A stretch of DNA of 64,000 nt from Paenibacillus stellifer. Lineage in GTDB: Bacteria > Bacillota > Bacilli > Paenibacillales > Paenibacillaceae. Under the pieces are notes generated by a model. That model had not been told where the DNA came from. It did no database searches and saw only the letters and a list, made by a program, of their open reading frames with translations. A program made the position numbers and the translations under genes. Positions 7,195-11,246 of the stretch are shown here, one piece after another. Positions within the stretch are counted from its first letter, which is position 1. Each line of letters starts with the position of its first letter. The stretch lies in contig NZ_CP009286.1 of the NCBI RefSeq assembly GCF_000758685.1, positions 4,618,501-4,682,500 on the forward strand, given 5' to 3'.

Positions 7195-7550
7195 TCAATC
7201 GCAATATTGTGGAAGTAAATCAACAAAAAAACTGACCGTATTGCCATCGGGATCATTCATCAAAAAGGATCGTACCCCCACGGTTTATCGCTCGGTGGAG
7301 AAATCGCTTGCAAACCGAGGTTAACCAGTCTGCGATATTCATCATCCACATTCTCGACCGCATAAATGAGTGCCGCGTTACTCGTTGACGGCGCCTCCAC
7401 ATCGTTCAGCTTATGAATAATGAGCTGCGCCGCATAAAAACGATAATCCACGCCCCCGTCCACCTCAGGCTCCTGTTCGAATAACTTCTTGTAGAACTCC
7501 ACGAGTTCTGTGATATTATGCGTTAGAATGCAAGCTCCATGAAGCTTCAT
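7195..7550 (-). pseudogene. VOC (glyoxalase-fold) protein gene with a -1 frameshift
   Basis: The N-terminal 90 or so residues (MKLHGACILTHNITELVEFYKKLF...) are a VOC/glyoxalase-fold protein. After ...ISPPSDKPWG the frame goes to a quick stop at 7260. In the next frame the expected ending VRSFLMNDPDGNTVSFFVDL continues to a stop at 7195. One base is missing in a run of five C (plus strand, 7275-7279). The ATG overlaps the stop of the MerR gene by four bases (ATGA), so the two form one operon. The break is either a true mutation or a homopolymer sequencing error. Confidence 0.8.
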
Positions 7551-8566
7551 ACTGACCTCCTCCTGATTGGCTGTACTTTTATCGGAAACAGCAGGTCAAG
7601 CTGCATCGTATGGATGTCAAAATCCGCTTTCTGAACGTTATTGATGTAATTCAACTGCTCCTCCAGCGCCCAATCCATCCCCTCAACATGCGGAGTACAG
7701 CGTATCGAGCCCCAGTCATTGGCATATTGTTCATGATCCACAACCCAATTATGTAACAAGCCCCAATGATCGAAGCTGCCAAAAGTAATGGCATGTGCGG
7801 CGTACAGCCCACCATGAAATTGGATTTTTTGGAGTGGAGCAGGCACCTCCATATGTTCCGGAATAGACACCCACATTTCATATCCGGTAGATGACGCGCC
7901 ATAGTCTGCATGTTGAATCGGATTATTGAAGCCAAAATGCCTGATATCAGGCTTGATCCTCAGCAACCCGCTTTCTTGAACGAATTGATTCAATACTCTG
8001 CCTGCATGCTCTTCGCAATCTTCACCGATATAATGGCTTGACGCGACCGTCATCGGCGGAAGATAAATGATTCTCACATCCAGCGGCTTGGTTAAGCCTT
8101 CGCTGGCCTTGTTCAGTTCTTCCATTGACTTGTCCACCTTTATCACTTTTTTGGTCAAAGACAAGGAGTTAACCAGCAGAAGCACGGATTCGTCAGCGAA
8201 CAAATCGGGTCTTATTCGGAGATTTGTTTTTTCCTGCAAAATATCAATGAACCGACTTATTATGGATCTGATCGTTGATAAAGATGTGATTTCATCGTTT
8301 AATTCATCGATATTCTGTTTAAAGACTTCAATCGCCGTAGCAACGTCTTGATTGTTCAGAACATTACAGATTTGCTTAACTGGAATACGCAGTTTCCGTA
8401 GGATAATAATTTGCTGCAATCGTTGAAGAGCGGTCTCATCATACACACGGTATGAATAGTCCTCCTTCCTGAGACTTTTGATCAGTCCGATTTGTTCGTA
8501 ATATCGCAGCATCCTTGGTGAAATCCCCAGATCTTTGGATACTGCGGTTATCGTCTGCAACTCCAC
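7547..8566 (-). CDS. MerR-family regulator with GyrI-like effector domain
   Basis: The first ~70 residues are a MerR winged helix (GISPRMLRYYEQIGLIKS... YRVYDETALQRLQQI), then a coiled-coil linker, then a C-terminal GyrI/BmrR-like ligand pocket (~165-320, with PPMTVASSHYIGEDC and GYEMWVSIPE). Such proteins bind hydrophobic compounds and activate their own operon by untwisting a long-spacer promoter. The start is GTG with GAGGAGG upstream. The 339-residue length suits a MerR-GyrI fusion. Its promoter at 8591-8621 has the 19-bp spacer typical of MerR control. The downstream VOC gene is translationally coupled but frameshifted. The ligand cannot be told from sequence. Confidence 0.88.
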   Translation of the reverse strand: MELQTITAVSKDLGISPRMLRYYEQIGLIKSLRKEDYSYRVYDETALQRLQQIIILRKLRIPVKQICNVLNNQDVATAIEVFKQNIDELNDEITSLSTIRSIISRFIDILQEKTNLRIRPDLFADESVLLLVNSLSLTKKVIKVDKSMEELNKASEGLTKPLDVRIIYLPPMTVASSHYIGEDCEEHAGRVLNQFVQESGLLRIKPDIRHFGFNNPIQHADYGASSTGYEMWVSIPEHMEVPAPLQKIQFHGGLYAAHAITFGSFDHWGLLHNWVVDHEQYANDWGSIRCTPHVEGMDWALEEQLNYINNVQKADFDIHTMQLDLLFPIKVQPIRRRSV

Positions 8567-8590
8567 GCCTGCTTCCTCCTCTCCCCACGA

Positions 8591-8621
8591 AGTATAAAGT
8601 GCGACACGGTGTCAAAGTCAA
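8591..8621 (-). promoter_or_regulatory. MerR-type promoter with 19-bp spacer and internal palindrome
   Basis: On the minus strand, -35 TTGACT (8616-8621) and -10 TATACT (8591-8596) are 19 bases apart, two more than normal. The spacer carries the perfect palindrome GACACCGTGTC. This is the classic layout of a promoter remodelled by a MerR-family activator, and it sits directly before the MerR gene, so autoregulation is likely. Confidence 0.85.
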
Positions 8622-8796
8622 CCCGTCTTGATCGAGCTGCGGAAAGAACGCCTTCGTTCAATCTTTAAGGCAAATTAGTTCAAAAAATCTTCAAATCATT
8701 CGAAATTTAAAAGGTTCTTTAGGAAAAATAAAACCCTTACAATGGAAAGTGAAAATGTTCCAAATTGCTAAAATAATCAGGAGGGGGACCTATTTT

Positions 8797-9270
8797 ATGC
8801 TTAATAAGTGGATCAATAATCCAAAGCAGTAAAAGGAAAAACAGGGTGTCATTGAAATATGTGCTGGTGAAAGCACGAATTTTTTATAAGTGCAGCCTCG
8901 GATTTCAAAGCCAGCAATGCTCCAATATATGTTGCCGAAGCAGGCGCTGAGTTCACATTCACATGTGAGGTTACTCCATTTTTATCGAATGTGTATGACT
9001 GGAGCAATTATGCTGTACATTAACGATCAGAACTGGGTTAAATTCGCCTATGAAGACACAGATTTGGGATATCCTGCAGTAGTAAGTGTAGTCATACATG
9101 AAGTTAGTGATGATTGTAATGGTGAGGCTGTTCAAGCATCGATCAGTGAAAATGATACCGTATATGTCGGAATTACAGCCCAAAGTCCAAGCGGGAAAGA
9201 GTGCAAGGTACAATTCAGTCACATCGAATACTGCAATGAATCGGTTAAGAACTTTAGGAAGGGCATATAA
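8797..9270 (+). pseudogene. DUF1349 (concanavalin-like) protein, degraded
   Basis: A strong ribosome site (AGGAGGGGG) precedes ATG at 8797. The frame reads MLNKWINNPKQ, then TAA, then KEKQGVIEICAGESTNF, as in the N-terminus of DUF1349 proteins where a Trp codon would be expected at the stop. After 8885 the reading continues in another frame (SDFKASNAPIYVAEAGAEFTF... VYDWSNYA), and from about 9011 in a third (MLYINDQNWVKFAYED... to a stop at 9268-9270). The parts in order match a DUF1349 lectin-like fold (NWVKFAYE, VYVGITAQSPSGK). One stop and two frameshifts make it a clear pseudogene. The family assignment rests on motif resemblance. Confidence 0.7.
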
Positions 9271-9352
9271 CTTATCTACTCGCGAATCCGCTTGCTGATC
9301 CATCTGATTTGACCTCTATGATTGATTTCATCCTCAAACACATGAAACCACT

Positions 9353-9565
9353 TGAACGCTCCCCCACTTAGCTAACACTTGAAGTGGGGGATTCTTGGGT
9401 AATCCCTTCTACTGAGAGGAATTCATATCGATATTTTCTCACGAAAAATCGTATACCAAGCGATCCCTGCGGTTCCCGCAGTTTTCTAAAGGAACATCTG
9501 TACGGGTCATTCCCACCGTTGTATGATGCCTTAGCCAAATATCTAAGGAACGGTGGTCTTGACGT
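9353..9565 (-). ncRNA. Probable omega/reRNA guide scaffold of TnpB
   Basis: TnpB nucleases use an RNA transcribed from the 3' end of tnpB through the element's right end; the sequence just past the end is the guide. Here the non-coding stretch after the tnpB stop is about 213 bases, too long for a plain 3' end, and finishes with a 9-bp GC-rich hairpin plus a short tail (GAGCGTTCA). By analogy the RNA may begin inside the tnpB coding end. The guide would be the dinB sequence at 9333-9352. Assigned by position and structure, not by a match to a known RNA. Confidence 0.6.
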
Positions 9566-10654
9566 TTAAACACCAAGGCGTTTGATGTTATGTGCGGCAT
9601 TTTCATCTCGATCATGATGGGTATGGCACGATGGACATGTCCATTGTCGCACAGACAATTTCTTTACTTCGGGATGGATCGTGCCGCATACATGACACCT
9701 TTGGCTCGTTGGAGCGAATGTATCCGCTACCTTCACCGTTCGTCCATACCATTTCGCTTTATACGCAAGCTGACGGGCAAATTCACCCCACGACGCATCG
9801 GCGATGGATTTGGCCAGCCGGTGATTTTTGAGCATGTTCGCCACTCTCAGATTTTCGATGCTGATCGTTTGATTTTCACGAATCAGCTTCGTGGTGAGTT
9901 GATGCAAAAAATCATGACGACTGTTGACAATCTTTTCATGGATTTGGGCAACCTTCTGTTTGGCTTTCTGCCAATTGGAGCCCCCTTGGTTACGGCGAGC
10001 CATGCGGCGTTGCCAAAATGCAAGTTTTTGTTCATATTTGCGAAACACTTTGGGATTGGCAACCCGCCCCCCATCCGAGCAGACCGCTAATTCCTTGAGT
10101 CCAAGGTCAATGCCGATCTCCTTATCGGTCTGTGGCAGAGGGTTCATTTCCACTTCGCAGAGGATGGATACAAAATACTTGCCTGCCGCATTTCGCCGCA
10201 GGGTAGCCGAAAGAATGCGACCTTCGCACGCTCTGGAGTTGGCAAAGCGAAGCCAGCTAAGCTTCGGAAGCTTCAGTCGGTTTCCATTGATCGCAATGTT
10301 GTCATTAGTGTATTTCGTGGTGTAGCTTTGAACAGGATGCTTGCGGCTTTTGAAGCGTGGAGCCTGATTTTGTTTCTTGAAGAAACGTTCAAAGCTGTCT
10401 GCCACGTTTCGCACCGCCGATTGCAGGGCAATGCTATCTACTGATTTTAGCCATTCAAATTGCTGTTTGAGTGCAGGAAGCTGCGTGGCACAGGCGTTAT
10501 AGGACAACCCTTTACCGGTTGCCGCATAGGTTTCGCTCCATTTGACTAAGAAATGATTGAAGACAAAGCGGCAACAGCCAAATATTTGATGGATGAGTTG
10601 ACGTTGTTCCGGGTTAGGATAGATGCGATATTTGTATGCTTTATGTACCAACAT
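9566..10654 (-). CDS. tnpB: TnpB RNA-guided nuclease (IS605 OrfB family)
   Basis: This 362-residue protein is a full-length TnpB: N-terminal [12 protein letters not shown], the RuvC-like acidic residues in [11 protein letters not shown] (~180), SIENLRV (~267) and [10 protein letters not shown] (~347), and the zinc ribbon CHVCG...CPSCH between the last two. All catalytic residues are present, so it is probably active. The ATG at 10654 ([13 protein letters not shown]) has a GGAGG site; longer starts upstream lack support. Its known role is to cut DNA matching the guide next to a target-adjacent motif, which keeps the element in the population by cutting empty sites. Confidence 0.93.
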
Positions 10655-10687
10655 GCCACGAGGCCTCCTTTCGCGTAGGATATTCCT

Positions 10688-10696
10688 ATTATAGCA
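10688..10696 (-). promoter_or_regulatory. Extended -10 promoter of tnpB
   Basis: The minus strand reads TGCTATAAT, an extended -10 (TGnTATAAT) inside the left end of the element, about 34 bases before the tnpB ATG. A convincing -35 at the usual distance is not seen. Confidence 0.5.
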
Positions 10697-11246
10697 CATA
10701 TGTTCGCTTTTGGGGCGCAAAACCGCCGATTCATCTCCTCTCTATTGAGGAAAGAGTCTTCTCGGCTTTTTAGATAAAGTAAAAGTTTGCCTGCCGATTG
10801 TTCCAGAAGTCCCTCTCTTCATATAGCCATTCATCACTTTTGGTTCTAAATAATTCAAAGGTCCGTTCACGCACTTCGCTCATTACGGATAAATAATAAT
10901 TTATATTATGGCCTTTAATATGTGCCCTGCCTTCTTCCCCCAAGCTTAACGCAGGCCCCCACCGAGCCAGTTCCTCTTCATTGAGTTCCCTCTCTTCAAA
11001 TGTACCAACTTGATACGCATATTCTACAGCTGCCATATGTAAAAGCAATGCACCTATCGAATTACTGTTGCTGTCATAAATGAAATCAAGCTGTTCCTGC
11101 GTCAAATCGTTAACGGATTCAAGTGTGGTCGCTCTGGCAAAATTCATCATGGATATTAAGTGTCCGATTTGCGGTGAATAACCAGGTATTTCAGTAATCA
11201 GGTAGAGCCTGTCGAGATTAAAAGTCATGGGTAATCCTCCTCTGTC

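Follow-up and report, generated by a model that had tools for sequence, protein, structure and literature searches.

A tnpB-only IS200/IS605-type element inserted without a scar 3' of TTTAT in a DinB-family gene of Paenibacillus stellifer, and its predicted guide RNA

A DinB-family gene of P. stellifer, on the minus strand of the 64,000-nucleotide stretch of DNA that was analysed here (the window), is interrupted by a tnpB-only IS200/IS605-type element of 1,422 bp (9352..10773, minus strand). We consider it probable (roughly 0.85) that this element inserted without a scar 3' of TTTAT, and that dinB alleles with TTTAT but without the element would be cut by TnpB under the direction of an omega-RNA from the element's right end, whose guide reads from 9351 downward. 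At the level of sequence this reading is supported by the two ends, the TTTAT and TTCAA common to the copies, an open tnpB frame with its catalytic triad, a covarying fold, and a relative in which the guide matches next to TTTAT; the RNA-guided cutting by TnpB is a prediction. Insertion at a motif without a scar, subterminal hairpin signals and tnpB without tnpA are the marks of the tnpB-only (IS1341-like) IS200/IS605 elements, and on these sequence features the element is one of them. An initial annotation of this DNA had recognized the kind of element, and tnpB is indeed alone among its long frames; it was also right that tnpA is missing, that insertion left no scar and that the guide would come from the right flank. 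Its motif, junction and guide start did not hold.

The DinB-family frame (10770-11228, minus strand) starts at 11228, runs downward and meets a stop just past RQANFYF, and the usual DinB ending (KWFHVFEDEINHRGQ...) picks up again 1,422 bases further on; in this the frames agree with the initial annotation. Pfam assigns the interrupted protein to its DinB/MST families, and the gene is not that of DNA polymerase IV, which is also known by the name dinB. Removal of 9353-10774, as first suggested, rejoins 454 and 77 bases into 531 bases, or 177 codons including the stop. That arithmetic is right, and it is silent on the ends: removal of 9352-10773 joins 455 and 76 bases into 177 codons as well, with Met instead of Lys as residue 152. 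Because both cuts yield 177 codons, the count cannot fix the ends, and we rejected it as proof of them.

The closest dinB gene among 100 same-genus genomes is that of genome G051, with 93% identity across 454 nt. No element breaks this gene, whose sequence at the site is ACTTTAT^GTGGTTTCATGTG, i.e. TTTAT^GTGG, so that the closest empty junction is TTTATGTGG; G051 is another species than the host, and a single-base change there is possible. Twenty-one related dinB loci were submitted to the junction comparison, and in the 20 that aligned the residue at the junction is Met in 18 and Lys in 2. The G051 allele and the Met of these 18 relatives together place the junction at TTTATGTGG and not at TTTAAGTGG, the empty site that had been predicted; a different sequence at this point was the outcome that the initial annotation itself had named as speaking against it. 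By the uninterrupted allele each end of the element moves by one base, from 9353-10774 to 9352-10773. The gene thus consists of a 5' part of 455 nt (10774..11228, minus strand), defined by its frame, Pfam and the comparison with relatives, and a 3' part of 76 nt (9276..9351, minus strand), defined by the rejoined frame and intact in G051. Downstream of dinB the two genomes also differ: the glyoxalase-like gene lies closely 3' of dinB in G051, and nothing in G051 corresponds to the stretch from the dinB end to this gene in the window (7547-9275), which contains a MerR-like gene and short frames. The glyoxalase-like frame of the window (7260-7550, minus strand) stops earlier than that of G051, judged by eye. 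Elsewhere in the window, a SAM riboswitch (RF00162, 43431-43575, minus strand) is the sole Rfam match at gathering score.

The ends were compared in further copies of the element. Some part of it is matched at E 0.001 in 35 of the 100 same-genus genomes, the host included, and 35 copies from 16 genomes entered the comparison, which took only fetched copies with both ends readable. Four were dropped for an unreadable left end (L100 from G049, L107 from G018, and remnants L009 and L010), and some further listed copies were unfetched. TTTAT precedes 31 of the 35 copies (27 as aligned, plus 4 that the alignment displays as TTATC, off by one base); the remaining four have TTTAG, CCTAT, TTTTT and CACCT. 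Counted over both strands, TTTAT occurs at only 0.13% of positions in the window, so its frequency before the copies is not due to chance. TTCAA closes all 35 copies and is followed by a mixed base (T 12, A 10, G 8, C 5). Outside this set, L009, L100 and L107 also end in TTCAA; remnant L010 does not, nor does the right-end piece L039, which has TTCA and then C. In the window, TTTAT is kept at the left end (10774..10778, minus strand), where it is the predicted target-adjacent motif (TAM) of TnpB, and TTCAA is the right end (9352..9356, minus strand).

The expectation that other copies would share a 5' motif was therefore borne out, one base away from the TTTA or CTTTA (10775-10779) first proposed. 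An element at 9353-10774 behind TTTA or CTTTA, with empty site TTTAAGTGG and a guide from 9352, would also give 177 codons, and its Lys is the residue of two relatives, but the closest empty allele reads otherwise, TTTAT is what precedes the copies, and a TTCA end would require A after each copy, yet that base varies. We regard this version as hardly credible; its motif and junction were rejected on the G051 allele and the 35-copy comparison.

Elsewhere in the host genome there are a second full copy (96%) with an open tnpB frame, a third copy interrupted by a 397-aa frame with DDE transposase domains (L008:2853-4046), and two shortened remnants. The flanks of the copy L013 (G045) are identical to those of L063, from a Paenibacillus rhizophilus record. 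Plasmid relatives from P. polymyxa and Brevibacillus are 76-79% identical to the element; in three of the four fetched records TTTAT is followed by C (two of the three apparently at the same site), and the fourth is unclear. A search for close viral copies gave only three loci, at 32-40% identity. Three places in G054 (C1:480971-481013, 546026-546068 and 5316106-5316148) match only the last 43 right-end bases of the element, at 88%, and may be right ends of other, diverged elements.

Further empty sites were found in relatives. For one G049 copy the site is spanned in four relatives, reading TTTAT^G in three and TCTAT^G in one. The right-hand flank of the second host copy (L011, G000:C1:935363-936783, compared with L148) comes after CTTTAT (CTTTAT^C) in all 11 genomes examined. 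In G051 about 6 kb separate the two flanks of this copy, and the left flank ends in TTTTGT. The deletion beside the copy must have followed its insertion, and perhaps came from recombination between two copies. The genes between these flanks or at their edges include those for a WYL-domain regulator, a beta-lactamase-fold (PF00144) hydrolase and an ATP-grasp protein. Target duplication is absent from the empty alleles at the dinB site and at one further site, and from the right half of another, which bears out the scarless, duplication-free insertion first described.

The element encodes a TnpB of 362 aa (9566..10654, minus strand; ATG at 10654, stop at 9566-9568). It scores 563.7 bits against NF038281 (IS200_TnpB; cut-off 425) and matches three Pfam domains of IS605 OrfB; a zinc-finger domain is present. 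Among proteins of solved structure it is closest to an AI-designed nuclease (9yyg, 368.9 bits), followed by ISDra2 TnpB (8bf8, 357.1 bits). D183, E267 and D350 align with D191, E278 and D361 of ISDra2 TnpB (by eye on the printed alignment), so the RuvC triad is kept, in agreement with the earlier statement that the nuclease residues are intact. With this triad, the zinc finger and a structured right-end RNA, the protein has, as far as its sequence tells, the features of the TnpB RNA-guided endonucleases. A tnpB gene with no adjoining tnpA could also encode an RNA-guided regulator that binds without cutting, like the TldR factors described in PMC13418256. We think this most improbable here, as D, E and D are all present and the gene is part of a multi-copy element with intact ends. 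TldR proteins have lost the RuvC D, E, D residues.

The right end (9352..9486, minus strand, with a provisional 5' end) is predicted to be the scaffold of an omega-RNA. The right ends of 31 copies (29 distinct) have in common a short helix and a long-range helix, and the terminal hairpin is the same in two of three right-end subgroups. In the named structure 98.3% of 520 cells pair, compared with 94.3% in shuffles, and 20 cells are changed on both sides, compared with 6.5; neither value was reached in 500 shuffles, which related sequences can beat without any structure. The number of pairs with two-sided change (3) was not above shuffles (227/500), and neither was that of pair types (236/500). 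Most of the support from covariation comes from a C-G to U-A exchange in helix 1 and a G-C to C-G exchange in helix 2. Automatic folding of longer right ends was only partly useful, the upstream part being poorly aligned. A model built from the right-end alignment (R1), which scores 161 bits in the window, was run on 38 sources, with matches in 23 and none in 15. The matches are the window, three remnants or partial copies of the element group, 16 further loci at 32-58 bits (14 from other genera or assemblies with no genus label, 2 from G018), and three weak ones (E 0.02-0.33). At L070, L071, L072 and L089 the R1 match begins at most 30 bases past the tnpB match. The right-end RNA had no match in Rfam.

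The guide of ISDra2 is the flank beyond the right end (PMC8612924). By this rule the guide of the dinB element is predicted to read from 9351 downward (9332..9351, minus strand, 20 nt; the first 16 nt are 9336-9351). The initial annotation had put it at 9333-9352; the right-flank origin stands and the start shifts with the corrected end. In the G051 allele the guide is identical for 34 nt, next to TTTAT. When the host genome was searched for the motif plus 17 guide bases with up to three mismatches, one site was found, namely the element's own junction, which has TTCAA for TTTAT. Among the 20 relatives, TTTAT is present at the dinB site in nine, and five of the nine agree with the guide at every one of its first 12 bases (by eye). 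According to PMC10278001, ISDra2 TnpB makes no use of guide bases beyond the twelfth. A synonymous Phe codon in dinB (TTT or TTC) creates or abolishes the TTTAT motif.

How the element moves is a separate question. There is no Y1 gene tnpA within 9352-10773, so the autonomy of the IS605 type is lacking. The end signals are nevertheless kept: an imperfect hairpin at the left end (10725..10766, minus strand) has AAAG at its foot, and the right-end hairpin (9361..9390, minus strand) is preceded by GAAT (9391-9394). AAAG was found in 31 of the 35 copies by a simple pattern, and AAGAATC, like the right end TTCAA, in all 35. IS608 uses the guides AAAG and GAAT with the right site TCAA (PMC5934647), and the signals of the dinB element, as read from sequence, point to Y1-type handling of its ends.

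The host genome has Y1 matches solely at 831719 and 1079895, one complete IS200-like gene and one fragment. The IS200-like tnpA sits between other ends, in surroundings unlike the element's ends, and a fitting tnpA was not found in the host. The element of this IS200-like tnpA has seven copies in G072 (L159, L165, L166 and L168-L171), always with the same short ends and with a protein 96% identical to that of the host; it is also present at L117. A search of eight genomes for tnpA (motifs by eye) gave two tnpA+tnpB elements at TTGAT in G018 and a TTTAA-located tnpA in five genomes, in four of which a distant tnpB match lies alongside. At a minimum identity of 60%, this TTTAA-type tnpA from sister genomes is present in 8 of the 16 carriers, as against 14 of the 84 non-carriers (Fisher p = 0.0067, kinship uncontrolled); in one of the 8 carriers (G072) it has an internal stop. 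It is a possible mobilizer, and the host has none. A Y1 gene was not found in the carriers G009, G060 and G076 by two protein searches, which distant ones may escape (G009 and G076 are drafts). Carrier genomes have up to three copies at different sites; G060 has three.

The host's lack of a fitting tnpA would also suit a stranded passenger, with TnpB and its RNA now inactive and the insertion staying for want of a transposase. In keeping with this view, deletions have reduced two other host copies to remnants, and a DDE transposase gene splits a further one. An intact tnpB frame and nuclease triad, the open frame of the second host copy and the conserved right-end fold argue against it, and we regard it as unlikely, though less so than the other alternatives. 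Less likely again is that the tnpB-only lineage spreads without a Y1 gene of its own, with TnpB and its guide, aided by an unrecognized or passing transposase, as the main agent, able to cut and convert the dinB alleles of other species as well, of which 5 of 20 retain TTTAT with a perfect 12-nt seed.

Under our preferred reading, that of an active guide against element-free dinB, the element would have entered as single-stranded DNA, moved by a Y1 transposase that acted in trans or was lost afterwards, because its ends retain guide and cleavage signals of the IS608 type and the host is without a matching tnpA. Its right end is predicted to yield an omega-RNA with the dinB guide, and TnpB would bind this RNA and cut alleles that lack the element and retain TTTAT. 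Repair from the filled copy might then keep the element in place, by analogy with the retention model proposed for ISDra2, in which TnpB cuts the element-free allele and repair copies the element back (PMC8612924); such a drive has been reported in plasmids (PMC11870625, a preprint). The host itself would be spared, since its own junction carries TTCAA at the motif position.

The dinB insertion is ordinary in kind and unusually well resolved. It brings together in one natural set a tnpB-only element, its exact ends, the motif, the guide and an uninterrupted allele that matches for 34 bases, and its natural targets permit testing of the TnpB retention model outside ISDra2. The element group and its sister tnpA elements are a good place to study the movement of tnpB-only elements. 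A paper on this Paenibacillus element was not found in literature titles or abstract openings.

Among known systems, ISDra2 of Deinococcus radiodurans is alike in its TnpB family (357 bits to 8bf8), in duplication-free insertion 3' of a 5-base motif and in the right-flank guide, but it has tnpA and TTGAT, whereas the dinB element has tnpB only and TTTAT (PMC8612924). The sister tnpA+tnpB elements of G018 (L158, L164) have a TnpB about 56% identical, the right end TTCAA and right-end RNAs that match R1 at 54.1 and 52.8 bits; unlike the dinB element they carry tnpA and lie 3' of TTGAT. IS608 shares AAAG and GAAT at the hairpin feet and the TCAA of the right site, but has tnpA and uses TTAC (PMC5934647). 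The TnpB of ISYmu1, likened here by description and not by sequence, has the TAM TTTAT as written in PMC12908284, where it is investigated for its use in editing. In Sulfolobus islandicus, solo tnpB elements likewise lack tnpA and have TTTAT at the left end; they are archaeal and again compared by description, not by sequence, and through them TTTAT at solo tnpB elements has already been reported in an archaeon (PMC10640517).
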